Shown here: one piece after another, positions 1-48,168 of the stretch
Layout: the number at the start of each line of letters is the position of its first letter
Numbering within the stretch: position 1 is the stretch's first letter
From: Flavobacteriaceae bacterium
GTDB taxonomy: Bacteria > Bacteroidota > Bacteroidia > Flavobacteriales > Flavobacteriaceae
DNA: 48,168 nucleotides
Assembly (NCBI GenBank): GCA_030835845.1
Contig: JAUROD010000028.1
Span: forward strand, 1-48,168
Direction of reading: 5' to 3'
The notes under the pieces: generated by a model
What the model was told of the DNA's origin: nothing
The model's input: the letters and a program-made list of their open reading frames with translations, nothing else
The model's database searches: none
Made by a program: the position numbers and the translations under genes

Positions 1-594
1 AGGGAAAGTCAATGTTTCATTTGAAATCAATTGTCCATCAATGGTTGTAATGTCTTTTCCTTGTTTCAGATTTTCCATATCGCTTTTATCCACTCCGTAT
101 TCTTCAACTTTCTCAGAATTGATTTTTCGAGGTCCTTTCTTTTCTCTAAAAAGATAACCATTAGTGTATACTCGATGATCTAAAGGTAATGTTTCAACAG
201 TAAATTTTTCATGATCCAATATCATTGTAGAAGTTTTACTTTCCAATTCATGAAAATATAATGCATAATCCGTCCAAGAATTGGCAAGTTTGAGTTGAAG
301 TGTGATAATCTCTTTTATACCTTTTGGTCCGAAAATGTGTAAATCAGCAGTTCGTCCAAGTAAACGAAAAGTACTTATTAAACCTATTAATCCATAAAAA
401 TGGTCTCCATGTAAGTGAGAAATAAAAATGTGCTGTATCCGAGTAAATTTGATGCCAAATTTACGCAACTGCATTTGTGTACCTTCACCACAGTCAATAA
501 GAACAAGTTGACCTTTTATCTCAAGTAATTGAGCCGTGGTTTGGGAATTTTTTCTTGGAGTTGCTGCATTACATCCTATAATTGTAAGTTTCAT
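1..594 (-). CDS. rnz: Ribonuclease Z, 3' end cut by window edge
   Basis: This is a metallo-beta-lactamase-fold endoribonuclease of the RNase Z/ElaC family, which trims the 3' trailer of tRNA precursors in the cytoplasm. The N-terminal 198 codons are present. The protein starts MKLTIIGCNAATPRKNSQTT and carries the zinc-binding motif SHLHGDH near residue 60 followed by FYGLIGL, both typical of RNase Z. The C-terminal part, with the remaining zinc ligands, lies off the left edge. The ATG at 592-594 comes 9 nt after the stop of the 103-residue gene upstream, so it looks like the last gene of the pyrR-pyrB operon. The family call is firm; completeness cannot be judged. Confidence 0.9.
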   Translation of the reverse strand, partial: MKLTIIGCNAATPRKNSQTTAQLLEIKGQLVLIDCGEGTQMQLRKFGIKFTRIQHIFISHLHGDHFYGLIGLISTFRLLGRTADLHIFGPKGIKEIITLQLKLANSWTDYALYFHELESKTSTMILDHEKFTVETLPLDHRVYTNGYLFREKKGPRKINSEKVEEYGVDKSDMENLKQGKDITTIDGQLISNETLTFP

Positions 595-4541: not shown

Positions 4542-4604
4542 TTATTCTCTTTTATGACATGCAAATAGAGAAACTAGCAAAATATAAGCTATGGGTTTTT
4601 TCAT
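4542..4604 (-). pseudogene. Orphan lipoprotein signal peptide, second copy
   Basis: Starting at the ATG at 4602-4604, the minus strand encodes MKKPIAYILLVSLFACHKRE and then TAA: a complete lipoprotein signal peptide with lipobox LFAC and no mature domain. It is nearly identical to the start of the broken lipoprotein gene at 5080 (42 of 44 nt match). A purine-rich TGAGGAT sits before its ATG. Sequence past its stop shows no likeness to the paralogue and runs into the rpsA promoter. It is most likely a truncated tandem duplicate; a tiny expressed lipopeptide cannot be excluded. Confidence 0.6.
4561..4604. repeat. 44-bp direct repeat, copy 1 (signal-peptide sequence)
   Basis: The first 30 nt are identical to 5037-5066, and the last 11 nt also match, giving 42 of 44 identical with the copy at 5037-5080. 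Both copies code for the same lipoprotein signal peptide on the minus strand. Confidence 0.85.
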
Positions 4605-4633: not shown

Positions 4634-5080
4634 TCACCTATTTAGTGGAATTGCAGAGTCAAAATCTTCATCTACTATAGTATATGTAAAGGTGTTTTTA
4701 GGGTCTTCAACATAAGCTTTAGTGTCTTCAGGAATATGAATATCAAAATATATAATATTTCTTTCATCCCTCCAGCAATCAGGAAAAATTATATTGCAGA
4801 ACAGTTGATACTTTAGTGAATCAAACACTACTCTAACAGAATCATATCCGATAAATTGAATGTTACAATGAAGATCTCCATAATCAGAATAACAATTTTC
4901 AAAATCCTCTAAGAATTCACCTGTTTTTAAGGTTGAGATTACGACTCTACCTGAATTATATCCCTCCATATGAACTGTATGTGAAGAATCGTTTTTAATT
5001 ATTCGTGTTATAGGAATAAATTAAATTTTATTGCAAGCAAATAGAGAAACTAGCAAAATATAAGCTAACGGTTTTTTCAT
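4634..5080 (-). pseudogene. Putative lipoprotein gene interrupted by an in-frame TAA
   Basis: The ATG at 5078-5080 opens with MKKPLAYILLVSLFACNKI, a lipoprotein signal peptide with lipobox LFAC. It is followed at once by TAA (5021-5023). The same frame then stays open for 128 codons: FIPITRIIKNDSSHTVHMEG, then a 111-residue segment that could start at the internal ATG at 4967-4969, ending PLNR at 4634. The continuous frame and the lipoprotein-like reading on both sides indicate one gene of about 148 codons split by a single nonsense codon. Function is unknown; the segment holds four Cys and many aromatic residues. Alternatives are a sequence error at the TAA, or a separate cytosolic 111-residue protein, which is less likely. 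Confidence 0.65.
5037..5080. repeat. 44-bp direct repeat, copy 2 (signal-peptide sequence)
   Basis: This is the partner of 4561-4604, with only two mismatches, both in codons 4-5 of the signal peptide. The copies are 476 bp apart in the same orientation. Recombination between them would delete the lipoprotein body. Confidence 0.85.
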
Positions 5081-42658: not shown

Positions 42659-43336
42659 ATGCGCATTGATATAATCACATTATTTCCTGAACTTCTTCAA
42701 AGTCCTTTTGAAGCTTCAATTGTCAAACGGGCAATTGACAGTGGTATAGCAGAAATTCATTTTCATAATTTACGTGATTACAGCAAATCTAAATACAAGC
42801 AAGTAGATGATTATCCCTTTGGGGGAGGTGCAGGAATGGTAATGATGATCGAACCTATTGACAAATGTATCTCTGCACTAAAAGCAGCTCGTTCATATGA
42901 CGAAGTAATTTATATGACCCCCGATGGAGAAACTTTAAATCAAGGAATTGCCAATCAATGTTCGTTGTACGAAAATATCATTTTATTGTGTGGTCATTAC
43001 AAAGGAGTAGATCAACGAGTACGCGATCATTTTATTACCCGTGAAATATCGATAGGTGATTTTGTCCTCTCAGGAGGTGAACTTGCAGCTGCTGTTTTTT
43101 GTGACAGTATTATCCGTCTTATTCCTGGTGTTCTGGGAGATGAATCCTCTGCCTTGAGTGACAGTTATCAAGACAATTTACTCGCACCCCCTATTTATAC
43201 ACGTCCTGCAGACTATAAAGGGTGGAAAGTGCCTGATATTTTAACCTCCGGAAATACACCAGCGGTAGAACAATGGAGAGAGGATAAAGCATTTGAGCGA
43301 ACTCAAAAACTTCGTCCCGATCTATTGGGTGAATAA
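42659..43336 (+). CDS. trmD: tRNA (guanine-N1)-methyltransferase
   Basis: It makes m1G37 next to the anticodon, which prevents frameshifting. The 225-residue SPOUT protein has DIITLFPEL at the start, FGGGAGMVM, the knot motif [13 protein letters not shown] and [13 protein letters not shown]. It is followed by rplS as in many bacteria, but a separate rplS promoter lies between, and rimM and rpsP are not next to it here. Confidence 0.96.
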
Positions 43337-43397
43337 AAGACAGAGGAAAACCACATAGCCTAGTCTTTTAATAAAAAATATTTTCAATAGACACCTC

Positions 43398-43427
43398 TTG
43401 TTAAAACTAAAATTAATTGTAGTTTTG
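43398..43427 (+). promoter_or_regulatory. Promoter of rplS
   Basis: TTG (43398-43400), a 19-nt spacer and TAGTTTTG (43420-43427) match the consensus. The leader to the ATG at 43493 is about 60 nt, long enough for control by a ribosomal protein, though I see no clear structure. Confidence 0.7.
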
Positions 43428-43492
43428 CAACCGCATTTAACCTCTGACGAAAATCGTGAATGTTGTATGCCATCAAACATTAAATGATTAAA

Positions 43493-43843
43493 ATGGAATC
43501 GTTAATTAATTTTGTTCAGGATCAATTCATTGAAAAAAAGGATTTTCCTGATTTTTTAGCTGGAGACACCATCACTGTGTACTACGAAATCCGAGAAGGA
43601 GAAAAAGTAAGAACTCAGTTTTTTAAAGGGGTTGTTATCCAAATTAAAGGACAAGGTTTAGCTAAAACCTTTACTATCCGTAAAATGTCTGGAACTGTAG
43701 GAGTTGAGCGTATCTTCCCAATCAATCTTCCAGCATTGCAAAAAATAGAAGTAAACAAACGCGGAAAAGTTCGTCGTGCACGTATCTACTACTTTAGAGA
43801 ATTACGTGGTAAGAAAGCGCGAATCAAGGAGCGTCAACACTAA
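43493..43843 (+). CDS. rplS: 50S ribosomal protein L19
   Basis: This large-subunit protein lies at the 30S/50S interface. From the ATG at 43493 it has 116 residues and starts MESLINFVQDQF as is usual; an ATG at 43484 would add three. The core GDTITVYYEIREGEKVRTQF, MSGTVGVERIFP and KVRRARIYYFRELRGKKARI are conserved. A strong terminator follows. Confidence 0.97.
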   Translation: MESLINFVQDQFIEKKDFPDFLAGDTITVYYEIREGEKVRTQFFKGVVIQIKGQGLAKTFTIRKMSGTVGVERIFPINLPALQKIEVNKRGKVRRARIYYFRELRGKKARIKERQH

Positions 43844-43853
43844 CATAGTATTT

Positions 43854-43879
43854 AAGGTCGCTTTTAAGCGACCTTTTTT
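43854..43879 (+). terminator. Terminator after rplS
   Basis: AAGGTCGCTT and AAGCGACCTT form a perfect 10-bp stem with a 2-nt loop, then a T run. It begins 10 nt past the rplS stop. Confidence 0.9.
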
Positions 43880-43909
43880 ATTCGCATAAACCAAAAATTA
43901 AACTTAGTT

Positions 43910-45136
43910 ATGGCAAAAATAAAAGTACAGAATCCAGTTGTAGAAATGGACGGGGATGAAATGACTCGAATCATTTGGAAGTTTATCAAAGAACAATTGA
44001 TTTTACCTTACCTAGAACTTGATATTGAATATTATGATCTTTCGGTTACTTCTCGTGATGCGACCAATGATGAGATCACTGTTCGTGCTGCCAATGCAAT
44101 TAAAAGACACAACGTAGGAATCAAGTGTGCAACAATTACACCCGACGAAGGACGTGTAAAAGAATTTAATCTTTCCCACATGTGGCGTTCTCCCAATGGA
44201 ACTATACGTAACATTGTTGGTGGAACTGTTTTTCGTGAGCCAATTATCATGAAAAATGTACCGCGATATGTACAAGGATGGACAAAACCAATTTGTATTG
44301 GACGTCATGCATTTGGTGATCAATACAAAGCAGCTGATACCGTTACACATGGAAAAGGAAAACTAACCATGACATTTACACCTGATGATGGAGGAACTCC
44401 TCAAAGTTGGGAAGTCTATCATTTCCAGGAAAATGGAGTAGCCATGTGTATGTACAACATTGATTCTTCTATCTATGGATTTGCTCGTTCTTGTATGAAC
44501 CAAGCATTAAAAAAAGGGTGGCCGCTTTACCTTTCTACAAAAAATACAATCATGAAAGCCTATGACGGTCGATTTAAGGATGTATTCCAGGAAGTATTTG
44601 ACAATGAGTTTAAAGACAAATTTGAAACAGCTGGAATTACTTATGAGCACCGTTTGATTGATGACATGGTAGCCGCAGCAATGAAATGGAGCGGTGGATT
44701 TGTTTGGGCATGTAAAAACTATGACGGGGATGTGCAATCTGATACCGTAGCACAAGGATTTGGTTCTCTTGGACTAATGACTTCTACCCTTGTTACTCCT
44801 GATGGGGTAACTATGGAAGCAGAAGCTGCTCACGGAACAGTTACACGTCACTATCGTCAACACCAACAAGGAAAAGAAACCTCAACCAACCCAATCGCAT
44901 CTATCTTTGCATGGACAAGAGGTTTACAACACCGTGGTAAACTTGATCACAATCAAGAATTGATTGATTTTTGCCAAACATTAGAACAGGTATGTATTGA
45001 AACTGTTGAAAGTGGTAAAATGACAAAAGATTTAGCTCTGCTAATTCACAAAGAGAATTTAACTTCAGAACATTATTTGACTACCCAGAAATTTTTGGAT
45101 GCGCTCAAAGAAAATCTTGAAGCTAAAATCGCTTAA
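43910..45136 (+). CDS. icd: Isocitrate dehydrogenase, NADP-dependent, eukaryotic-like type
   Basis: It oxidises isocitrate to 2-oxoglutarate in the TCA cycle. The 408-residue protein begins [19 protein letters not shown] and carries SPNGTIRN (substrate Ser loop), [11 protein letters not shown] and [20 protein letters not shown]. This pattern belongs to the homodimeric type II enzymes close to eukaryotic IDH1/2, not to the E. coli Icd type. The [12 protein letters not shown] segment supports NADP use. It is a single gene with its own terminator. Confidence 0.95.
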
Positions 45137-45143
45137 TATACAC

Positions 45144-45169
45144 AACGCTACTTCGGTAGCGTTTTTTTT
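45144..45169 (+). terminator. Terminator after icd
   Basis: AACGCTAC-TTCG-GTAGCGTT is a perfect 8-bp stem with a stable TTCG tetraloop and eight T residues. Confidence 0.93.
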
Positions 45170-45205
45170 GTATCATCTTTTTTGGGCAAAAAACCAAACT
45201 TAAAT

Positions 45206-45484
45206 TTAAAAACAGGATTTTAATCCTGTTTTTTTGTGGCTTTCAATATTCTCTTTTTTGATTCCTAAAAACCCAAATCCAATACTAGTGAGAAGAAAAG
45301 CCAAAAGTAAAGAAGCGGATATTTTCCACCATTTTGTAATTGTATGTGATTTCCACAAGGCATAGAGACCAATGGGAAAAAAGAAAATTAAAAACAGATG
45401 GGTAACTAACTTGTCGTCGTACCAGTTTTTAGTATGAAAAAAAATGCGTAATCGACAGGTTATATTCCTCCATTGGTTAGCCAT
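45206..45484 (-). CDS. Small membrane protein, superinfection-style PVGLYALW motif family
   Basis: From the ATG at 45484 this is a 92-residue protein with two hydrophobic helices (LVTHLFLIFFFPIGLYALWK and ISASLLLAFLLTSIGFGFLG). The first ends in FFFPIGLYALWKS, a motif seen in many short bacterial membrane proteins of unknown function. The C-terminus SHKKTGLKSCF is encoded by the terminator hairpin at 45211-45236, so the tail may be a later addition. The phrase SIGFGFLGIK closely resembles that in the DUF6095-like protein downstream of murQ, down to the DNA (27 of 28 nt). The same frame is open further upstream to 45700, but that part looks non-coding. No function can be given; the word family in the call refers only to the motif. 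Confidence 0.55.
   Translation of the reverse strand: MANQWRNITCRLRIFFHTKNWYDDKLVTHLFLIFFFPIGLYALWKSHTITKWWKISASLLLAFLLTSIGFGFLGIKKENIESHKKTGLKSCF
45211..45236. terminator. Bidirectional terminator between icd and the small membrane gene
   Basis: AACAGGATT-TT-AATCCTGTT is a perfect 9-bp stem with A residues on one side and seven T residues on the other, so it can work on both strands. It serves as a second stop after icd and ends the minus-strand gene, whose last codons it encodes. Confidence 0.8.
45256..45283. repeat. 28-bp inverted near-repeat, left copy
   Basis: The reverse complement of this segment matches 46673-46700 at 27 of 28 positions (ATTGGATTTGGGTTTT, T or C, AGGAATCAAAA). It lies in the small membrane-protein gene, on the other side of murQ from its partner. 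Confidence 0.8.
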
Positions 45485-45681
45485 TTTATAAAAAGGTTTG
45501 CCAAGGGAACGAACTATTTTTGCAAGAGAGAATATGCAATAAAAATTATTTGATTGGTGTAGGTTTTTCATTGGTAAATGGCTTTTGGGGTATTCGCTTG
45601 CAACAAATATAGTAATTTTTTTTAATGGCAGACACTGTATTGTTTTATTCAAAAACACCTTAAAAAAAATATTCGATTTGG

Positions 45682-45689
45682 TATCTTTG
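45682..45689 (+). promoter_or_regulatory. Candidate -7 element for murQ
   Basis: TATCTTTG is an exact -7 consensus 13 nt before the murQ ATG. No TTG lies at the usual spacing upstream. The rest of the 218-bp gap (45485-45702) shows no gene or RNA that I can recognise. Confidence 0.5.
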
Positions 45690-45702
45690 AAAAAACCCAT
45701 CG

Positions 45703-46521
45703 ATGGACTTTATAAAAATCACCGAACAAGATTCTCTCTATGACAAGCTCGAGACAAAAGGAGTAGGTGAATTGATATCAGCTATTCATACAGAAGATCA
45801 AAAGGTAACCAAAGCCATTAAAAAAGTTTTGCCAGCAATTGAAACCTTAATCGAAAAAGTAGTGAATCAACTCAGTCATGAAGGTCGATTGTTTTATATC
45901 GGTGCAGGAACAAGTGGACGATTGGGTATTTTAGACGCTTCTGAATGTCCTCCTACCTTTGGGACAGATCCAGAAAAGGTAATCGGTTTGATTGCTGGAG
46001 GTGAAAAAGCGGTCTATAAAGCAGTTGAAAATGCAGAAGATTCTACCACGCAAGGCTGGAAAGATTTGGAAGCATATGCAGTATCCTCGCAAGATATGGT
46101 AATAGGAATTGCTGCTTCAGGAACTACCCCCTATGTCGTTCATGCACTTGAAGCATGTCAAAAAAATAACATTCCTACCGGATGTATTTGTTGCAACGAA
46201 GGAAGTCCTATGGCAAAGGTGTCCAACTATCCGATTGAGGTCATTGTGGGACCTGAATTTGTTACAGGAAGTTCTCGAATGAAGGCTGGTTCTGCCCAAA
46301 AAATGATTTTAAATATGATTACTACCGCTTCCATGATTCGTTTGGGACATGTCAAAGGAAATAAAATGGTAGATATGCAACTCAATAATGCTAAATTGAA
46401 AAAACGTGCCGTGCATATTGTAGCAGAAAAACTTACTGTCTCTCTTGAAATGGCAGAACAACTTTTACAGACCCACAAAAGCATTCGCCAGGCGATAAAA
46501 AACCATCAACCCAATGGATAA
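45703..46521 (+). CDS. murQ: N-acetylmuramic acid 6-phosphate etherase
   Basis: It removes lactate from MurNAc-6-phosphate to give GlcNAc-6-phosphate, part of cell-wall recycling. The 272-residue SIS-fold protein has FYIGAGTSGRLGILDASECP and the active-site segment VTGSSRMKAGSAQKMILN. Length is normal for the Bacteroidota form. No murP, anmK or nagA is adjacent, so the supply of MurNAc-6-P is encoded elsewhere. Its last 8 nt overlap the next gene (ATGGATAA). Confidence 0.95.
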   Translation: MDFIKITEQDSLYDKLETKGVGELISAIHTEDQKVTKAIKKVLPAIETLIEKVVNQLSHEGRLFYIGAGTSGRLGILDASECPPTFGTDPEKVIGLIAGGEKAVYKAVENAEDSTTQGWKDLEAYAVSSQDMVIGIAASGTTPYVVHALEACQKNNIPTGCICCNEGSPMAKVSNYPIEVIVGPEFVTGSSRMKAGSAQKMILNMITTASMIRLGHVKGNKMVDMQLNNAKLKKRAVHIVAEKLTVSLEMAEQLLQTHKSIRQAIKNHQPNG

Positions 46522-46744
46522 AGTAGAACTTCAGAAAGGATTAAAACGTATTTCATACGCTATTATTTGTGCATTTATAGGACCTGTGGTGATTATGCAA
46601 GCCTTCCAAAACGAAGCACATCCTTTTTATTATCCAGTGTTGATTGTAGGCTTGGTGTTTTTTGTTTCTTCAATTGGATTTGGGTTTTCAGGAATCAAAA
46701 GTGTCGCAAATGCGTTTTTAGGAAAAAAAGGAGCGGATAAATAA
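46514..46744 (+). CDS. DUF6095-like small membrane protein
   Basis: This 76-residue protein has two hydrophobic helices (about residues 14-31 and 40-58) and a basic C-terminus (FLGKKGADK). It overlaps murQ by 8 nt and is surely co-transcribed. I link it to the flavobacterial family DUF6095 by size, helices and the place after murQ; this is from memory. The function is unknown; a link to the membrane side of wall recycling is only a context guess. The segment SIGFGFSGIK is the right arm of the 28-bp inverted repeat. Confidence 0.75.
   Translation: MDKVELQKGLKRISYAIICAFIGPVVIMQAFQNEAHPFYYPVLIVGLVFFVSSIGFGFSGIKSVANAFLGKKGADK
46673..46700. repeat. 28-bp inverted near-repeat, right copy
   Basis: This is the partner of 45256-45283 in opposite orientation with one mismatch. 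The two copies lie about 1.4 kb apart and flank murQ. Confidence 0.8.
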
Positions 46745-46752
46745 GCTCGCTC

Positions 46753-46784
46753 TTTGCTTCCCTAGCGGAATCCGATTATCTTTG
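46753..46784 (+). promoter_or_regulatory. Promoter of thrS
   Basis: TTTG (46753-46756), a 20-nt spacer and TATCTTTG (46777-46784) match the Bacteroidota promoter. The ATG is 20 nt later, so there is no room for a T-box leader. Confidence 0.75.
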
Positions 46785-46804
46785 CGCTTTATTTAAATCA
46801 ATTT

Positions 46805-48168
46805 ATGATTTCAATTACACTTCCAGACGGTTCAATTCGTCAATATGAAAATGCATTAACTGTGTTGGATATCGCCAAAGATATCAGCGAGGGACTTGCC
46901 CGCAATGTCCTTTCTGCAAAGTTTAACAATCAAACAGTAGAAGCAAGTACTTCAATTGAAACAGATGGAAACCTCACCCTTTACACTTGGAATGACGACG
47001 AGGGAAAAGCTGCCTTTTGGCACTCCTCTGCCCATATATTAGCCCAAAGTATTTTGGCGCTTTACCCATCTGCTAAACTTACCATAGGACCATCAATTGA
47101 AAATGGATTTTACTATGATGTAGATTTCGGAAACGAAAGTTTTTCAGAAAAAGAATTAGCGGCAGTTGAAAAGCAATTTTTAACGTTTGCTCGTGAAAAA
47201 TTCACCTTTAAAATGCGGAATTGCAGTAAAGCTGAAGCACTTGCCTTTTACAAGAAAGAAGAAAATCCATTTAAGGTTGAGCTCATCGAAAACCTTGAAG
47301 ACGGAACAATCACTTTTTGTGATCATGCTGACTTTACAGATTTATGTCGTGGTGGACATATTCCCCATACCGGTTTTGTAAAAGCTGTAAAACTACTAAG
47401 TGTTGCTGGTGCATACTGGCGTGGAGATGAAACCAAGCCCCAATTGACACGTATTTACGGAATCTCTTTTCCAAAACAAAAAGAGTTGACCGAATACCTC
47501 GAATTACTCGAAGAAGCTAAAAAACGTGATCACCGAAAGCTAGGAAAAGAACTTGATTTATTTACTTTTTCTCAAAAAGTAGGACAGGGATTACCTCTTT
47601 GGTTACCCAAAGGAACTGCCTTAAGAGAACGCTTGGAAAACTTTTTAAAAGAAGCACAAAAAAAAGCAGGCTACGAACAAGTGATTTCTCCCCATATAGG
47701 GAACAAAGAATTATATATCACTTCGGGACATTACGATAAATACGGAGCAGATAGCTTTCAACCTATTGAAACTCCCGCTGAAGGAGAAACTTTTCTTCTT
47801 AAACCGATGAACTGCCCACACCACTGTGAAATATACAACGCACGTCAGTGGAGCTATAAAGATTTACCCAAACGTTATGCAGAATTTGGAACTGTTTATC
47901 GCTACGAACAAAGTGGAGAATTACATGGATTGACTCGTGTTCGTGGATTTACTCAAGATGATGCGCATATTTTCTGTATGCCCAACCAGCTTGATGAAGA
48001 GTTTAAAAAGGTAATTGATTTGGTACTTTATGTTTTTGGATCATTAGGGTTTGAAGACTTTACCGCACAAGTTTCACTTCGCGACCCTGACAATCCGGAA
48101 AAATACATTGGTTCTACCGAAAATTGGGAATTGGCAGAACAGGCAATAATTAATGCAGCAAAAGAAAA
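46805..48168 (+). CDS. thrS: Threonyl-tRNA synthetase, 3' end cut by window edge
   Basis: It charges tRNA-Thr. The 454 codons present cover the TGS domain (residues 1-60), the editing domain with its metal-binding pattern (HSSAHILAQS ... CDHADFTDLCRGGH), and most of the catalytic domain, including the zinc Cys in LKPMNCPHHCEIY and class II motif 2 (YRYEQSGELHGLTRVRGFTQ). Motif 3 and the anticodon-binding domain lie past the right edge. The ATG at 46805 gives the family N-terminus MISITLPDGS. Confidence 0.96.
   Translation, partial: MISITLPDGSIRQYENALTVLDIAKDISEGLARNVLSAKFNNQTVEASTSIETDGNLTLYTWNDDEGKAAFWHSSAHILAQSILALYPSAKLTIGPSIENGFYYDVDFGNESFSEKELAAVEKQFLTFAREKFTFKMRNCSKAEALAFYKKEENPFKVELIENLEDGTITFCDHADFTDLCRGGHIPHTGFVKAVKLLSVAGAYWRGDETKPQLTRIYGISFPKQKELTEYLELLEEAKKRDHRKLGKELDLFTFSQKVGQGLPLWLPKGTALRERLENFLKEAQKKAGYEQVISPHIGNKELYITSGHYDKYGADSFQPIETPAEGETFLLKPMNCPHHCEIYNARQWSYKDLPKRYAEFGTVYRYEQSGELHGLTRVRGFTQDDAHIFCMPNQLDEEFKKVIDLVLYVFGSLGFEDFTAQVSLRDPDNPEKYIGSTENWELAEQAIINAAKE

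Follow-up and report, generated by a model that had tools for sequence, protein, structure and literature searches.

In the Flavobacteriaceae genome analysed here, murQ lies between two small membrane-protein genes that carry nearly the same 28 nucleotides on opposite strands. The arrangement raises the question of whether the repeat is the trace of a copying event between the two genes, a pair of sites at which the murQ segment can be inverted, or a coincidence. The features concerned lie near one end of the window, by which we mean the whole stretch of DNA that was analysed (48,168 nt).

The inverted repeat and its two genes

The features are as follows.

45206..45484, minus strand: prot1, a two-helix membrane protein of 92 aa between icd and murQ, with a match to profile A3 and two hydrophobic stretches
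45208..45233, minus strand: terminator-like hairpin in the prot1 frame (fold −11.9 kcal/mol, z −4.90)
45256..45283, minus strand: copy 1 of the 28-mer, with TTA (Leu), where the second hydrophobic stretch of prot1 ends; the proposed recipient
45703..46521, plus strand: murQ, N-acetylmuramic acid 6-phosphate etherase, between the copies (TIGR00274 of NCBIfam, 310.6 bits against a cut-off of 302)
46514..46744, plus strand: DUF6095 membrane protein (PF19589, E 1.5e-23), 76 aa, overlapping the end of murQ, with thrS next
46673..46700, plus strand: copy 2 of the 28-mer, with TCA (Ser), in the second hydrophobic stretch of the DUF6095 protein; the proposed donor

The 28-mer, ATTGGATTTGGGTTTT(T/C)AGGAATCAAAA, is present in two copies that are identical at 27 of 28 positions, with a start-to-start distance of 1417 nt. 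Coordinates, strands and identity are exactly those given in the preliminary description. The repeat encodes the closing part of the second hydrophobic stretch in each of the two proteins. It begins 201 nt from the ATG of prot1 (at 45484) and 159 nt from that of the DUF6095 gene (at 46514); since both offsets are multiples of three, the arms are in the same codon phase, and the peptide I-G-F-G-F-(L/S)-G-I-K is common to both proteins. The shared peptide had earlier been given as SIGFGF(L/S)GIK. Its part from the first Ile onwards is indeed encoded by the 28-mer, but the leading Ser lies outside it and is common as a residue only (AGT versus TCA).

Identity drops on either side of the 28-mer. 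A longer repeat arm of 49 nt at 80% identity amounts, by hand count, to 27/28 plus the 12/21 likeness retained by the 21 nt ahead of the repeat, which is perhaps due to the T-rich composition of helix-coding DNA. The inverted tracts exceed background likeness and have sharp edges, with 27/28 falling to 12/21 on one side. A scan of positions 43000-48168 detected no RNA family at the repeats. An L19-Flavobacteria ribosomal leader lies ahead of rplS at 43438-43465 (RF03130, 47.6 bits against 31.5).

Rarity of the repeat

The draft genome, 83.8% complete, comprises 61 contigs totalling 1,558,773 bases. A pattern search allowing up to 3 mismatches located the 28-mer at these two places only. At the same tolerance no match was detected in 396 other genomes of the family, a sample of 397 with our own in which the genus is represented only by G012, G013 and our genome (2 of its 18 other members). 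The closest matches in DUF6095 loci of the genus are at least 6 mismatches off, and the exact 25-nt core of the 28-mer is absent from viral contigs. A common way of encoding a membrane helix, found in many unrelated proteins, was rejected as a source, the 28-mer being confined to one of the 397 genomes.

An all-against-all comparison of 28-mers within the window gave this pair as the best inverted one, followed by a self-hairpin at 24/28 and then by 23/28. None of 100 shuffled windows contained a match at up to 3 mismatches. For a wider background, 21 stretches of this genome were set against each other in 210 pairs, which gave 7.25e10 position pairs for each orientation; low-complexity matches were removed. 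In inverted orientation 24/28 was reached 22 times, 25 to 27 never and 28/28 twice, both times in 141-nt overlaps of contig ends; there were nine direct matches of at least 25/28. By hand extrapolation from the inverted counts, an inverted 27/28 match within 5 kb is expected in well under 1 in 10,000 windows. Each of the eight shared residues has the same codon in both genes, among them GGG, used for 12.5% of Gly, and ATC, used for 19.1% of Ile; with the residues given and codons chosen at random according to the codon use of 31 window ORFs, eight identical codons have P ~0.0036. The earlier view that chance is an unlikely source of the repeat is therefore upheld by the shuffled windows and by the empty background classes at 25 to 27.

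The same window comparison revealed a single direct pair at 28/28 (positions 4561 and 5037). It belongs to a direct repeat, 4561-4604 and 5037-5080, with 31 nt exact and 44 nt with 2 mismatches, the copies being 476 bp apart; its 28-nt core is found only twice in the genome. On the minus strand it codes twice for a lipoprotein-like start, MKKP(I/L)AYILLVSLFAC. For the copy at 5080, a TAA in frame comes ahead of ORF 4637-5020, and the copy at 4604 has a 20-codon frame only.

The assembly itself could be at fault, given 61 contigs, 83.8% completeness and a probable metagenomic origin that we infer for this genome. The 141-nt overlaps at two contig-end pairs suggest an assembly word of about that size, and a 28-nt repeat is far shorter. 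Moreover, the flanking gene order agrees with that of relatives, and the frame of prot1 is open and its product homologous to a protein family. We consider an artefact very improbable. The overlapping ends, an apparent trace of the word size, join window positions 1-141 with L099 and L104 with L106.

Ancestry of the two arms

We compared each arm with relatives of its own gene. The product of 46514-46744 matches PF19589 at 83.2 bits, against a gathering score of 23.8; the gene was matched in 55 of 100 genomes searched (ours included), and it adjoins thrS in loci of the genus. No mention of DUF6095 was found in the literature searched. Among 12 relatives, with the window's own protein left out, I54, G57 and F58 are nearly invariant, and variants of the block occur in the genus, AIGFGFWGI in G017 and SIGLGFLGI in G005 and G011. 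From these alignments the repeat block is native to DUF6095. The Lys after GI is common to the window's protein and that of G003 and to no other of 16 genus sequences, and for that codon an exchange toward DUF6095 is possible. At the L/S position, 4 of 16 other genus sequences have TTA (Leu) and none has TCA, so the Ser of the DUF6095 protein may be a later change, although the polarity of this difference is uncertain. G011 has two DUF6095-thrS loci, L044 (G011:C1) and L038 (G011:C46), whose DUF6095 copies are 46% and 67% identical to the window's; one perhaps lies on a foreign contig in that draft.

The prot1 gene is best read as 45206-45484, as the mechanical ORF extending to 45700 (164 aa) takes in upstream sequence. 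Its family consists of small proteins with the motifs KWYN...FPPxGLYxxYKS...WKK and differs from the DUF6095 family. A profile built from seven relatives with prot1 left out (profile A3) matched prot1 at E 3.1e-10 over residues 18-68. The alignment goes no further than the first repeat codon, which is four positions short of the end of the 60-position profile; this edge is soft, with the alignment reaching residue 68 and the envelope residue 74. The FGFxGIK block is absent from all 10 of the 10 other family members read, which end, for example, in AMIGLIIMYSI or AVVGGVVIHSF, and the family consensus has IG where the repeat starts. Most of the aligned relatives (n=8, distant) stop opposite the end of the repeat. 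The prot1 frame continues for 16 codons past it and through the hairpin at 45208..45233, on whose last paired base the prot1 stop codon starts. The stops of icd and rplS precede their hairpins. Two observations count against a copied end: the relative L034 has a strong hairpin directly after its stop, and the prot1 hairpin was not among the output of the consensus terminator scan, which we would ascribe to the T run being part of its stem.

The family is sparse: at E 0.001 profile A3 found it in 17 of the 397 family genomes, our own included. In the 18 other genomes of the genus prot1 had no match at E 0.001, although these are 65-95% complete and may have a copy in the portion that they lack. 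A mobile source was considered and set aside. With E allowed up to 1, nothing in phage or plasmid records matched prot1; a pattern fitted 52 stretches of viral contigs, of which 0 were confirmed, and 313 stretches of genome contigs, of which one was confirmed, in a longer protein of a Merdimonas MAG (L054) matching residues 18-64.

Could the block be a remnant of shared ancestry of the two proteins? Both are two-helix proteins of similar layout. Comparison of their profiles without the window's members gave a probability of 41% over 38 columns, but this fell to 29.5% once those members were included. A relaxed search of the genus with prot1 (E up to 1) returned weak matches, the best at 0.0128, four of which are DUF6095 genes of other genomes. 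While prot1 scores 12.6 bits with the DUF6095 profile, the Pfam scan that recognized DUF6095 did not call prot1 a member (no match to PF19589 at E up to 1), and pairwise BLASTP aligned a 16-residue block only. Old ancestry would not, in any case, leave 27/28 identity over 28 nt beside diverged flanks. Distant paralogy is thus very unlikely.

A stronger alternative is convergence, in which the second helices of both proteins natively end in an xIGxGFxGI(K)-like sequence and the codon match reflects luck and the T-rich composition of helices. The IG already present in the prot1-family consensus is in its favour. So is a control provided by the same genome. Among 343,901 sampled bases, with pairs less than 100 nt apart and low-complexity pairs dropped, just one further inverted pair reaches 25/28 or more within 5 kb, and it joins ndk and recF, convergent neighbours (L098:759-786 and 1836-1863; 25/28, 1.1 kb apart, in phase). 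Here near-identical DNA (24/27) codes for ALKxTQLS, and the loci of the genus that were read contain close counterparts of the two peptides, ALKKTQLS and ALKTTQLS. Peptide coincidences between unrelated neighbours therefore do occur, which counts against copying and leaves convergence some weight. DNA identity of the ndk/recF pair is 24/27 here versus 15-20/27 in 15 relatives (2 of 18 loci lacking a motif were left out). This higher match could be due to homogenisation or to chance and gives a weak hint of the former. As its peptides occur genus-wide, the pair was rejected as a second case of copying and is given no weight in its favour. Two inverted pairs of at least 25/28 within 5 kb were detected in 400,000 bases of G010. 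One lies in L114, which has six direct pairs as well and resembles a set of repeated genes; the other (L115) is A+T-rich.

Convergence is opposed by the lack of FGFxGIK in every prot1-family member read and by codon identity, which alone costs the factor of ~0.0036 given above. The ndk/recF pair, moreover, reaches only 25/28, compared to 27/28 here with no match in 396 other genomes. We regard convergence as unlikely but not negligible.

Gene order and the suggested inversion of murQ

The preliminary description had also proposed that the repeats allow inversion of the murQ segment. Since the arms are inverted, share their codon phase and are 27/28 identical, a crossover between them would turn murQ round and exchange the tails of the two membrane proteins, with both frames open in either state. 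Eighteen loci were compared (L035-L052), three of which (L035, L043 and L044) carry part of the gene set only. In 14 of 14 informative loci of the genus, as well as in one locus of another genus, icd, murQ, DUF6095 and thrS have the same order and orientation, and no prot1 was found in those 14. Compared with relatives, murQ has thus kept its orientation. No serine resolvase/invertase domain (PF00239) was found in the 83.8%-complete genome, in a search whose positive control matched in 10 of 14 known genomes. Ten neighbouring proteins were scanned (48 window ORFs are listed) and contained no recombinase or transposase family, the lone IstB_IS21 match among them being DnaA. Finally, one arm is ordinary conserved DUF6095 coding sequence. 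That the repeats are recombination sites is the least probable of the explanations considered. Scarcely more probable is a switch that arose from a single short copying accident and would flip murQ and swap the C-terminal tails.

The icd-murQ gap measures 566 nt in the window, compared to about 70 to 330 nt in the 14 genus loci. Because the 18 other genomes of the genus lack a prot1 match at E 0.001, prot1 looks inserted, and it is most simply an insertion into this gap in the window's lineage. Two other observations concern the surroundings of murQ. Gap sequences were read for 10 of the 14 genus loci and for one locus outside the genus; in L041 (G014) the gap of ~330 nt contains a hydrophobic open stretch of 72 codons, unmatched and on the strand opposite to murQ. 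In G003 a 1.2-kb insert between murQ and DUF6095 (L042:2627-3830) carries an ORF of lipoprotein type and a fragment that resembles the end of Phage_integrase (E 6.2e-6; its 26.5 bits fall slightly short of the Pfam cut-off of 27.1); the surroundings of murQ thus took up DNA in another species too.

Proposed origin and known mechanisms

The most probable explanation, in our view, is that the end of prot1 received, over a distance of ~1.4 kb, an inverted in-frame copy of part of the DUF6095 gene. Prot1 would first have entered the icd-murQ gap. A tract of ~28 nt of the DUF6095 gene would then have been copied into it in inverted orientation and the same codon phase, overwriting the last prot1 residues and probably the prot1 stop codon. 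Without the old stop, the frame would run on for 16 codons through the hairpin. The profile match ending at the repeat, the relatives devoid of the block and the run of the frame through the hairpin fit a tract that overwrote the end and stop of prot1. The direction of copying, the loss of the stop codon and the mechanism are inferred parts of this explanation. The copy could have been made by template switching to the opposite strand during replication or by a single-stranded fragment joined at microhomologies, for which ATTGG on one side and AAAA on the other are candidates; ATTGG is also present in the relatives L065 and L066. At 1.4 kb both are likely routes, and the data separate neither from the other. 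The explanation does not require the repeat, as such, to have a function. The earlier suggestion of a recently copied C-terminal helix fits ~28 nt that are native to DUF6095, not seen in prot1 relatives and alike at the codon level; a whole helix or gene is not shared.

If this explanation is right, a natural 28-nt inverted copy between unrelated neighbours in a bacterium gave a gene, all at once, a new and longer end. Such copies are easily missed, as source and target must be near and the event recent. A short inverted repeat in coding DNA can then arise without a recombinase, which calls for caution in scans for invertible switches.

Three known systems may be compared with this locus. DNA-invertase switches of the shufflon-like type use inverted repeats that lie in frame in two genes. 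The repeats described here resemble them in length, orientation and frame; they differ in that no serine recombinase was found in the genome and no inverted state was seen. In Acinetobacter baylyi, short-patch double illegitimate recombination reportedly replaces a patch of the genome at microhomologies with a short stretch from elsewhere in the genome in either orientation. The likeness lies in the short inverted patch, while the edge microhomologies here are candidates only. In template switching between short inverted repeats, one arm templates the other and clustered changes result in coding DNA (PMC8604942). Abraham and Hazkani-Covo (2021) described in yeast arms that were homogenised, with up to five neighbouring residues replaced in one gene; their search design took arms of 7 bp or more and spacers of at most 70 bp (PMC8604942). 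In our case the tract is 28 nt long, the arms stand 1417 nt apart rather than at most 70 bp, the host is a bacterium, and the ancestral sequence is not observed. Common to both would be the inverted copying of one arm, giving neighbouring amino-acid replacements in coding DNA (PMC8604942). Most likely, then, the repeat is a further example of a type of mutation already described, a copying accident and not a switch that flips murQ.
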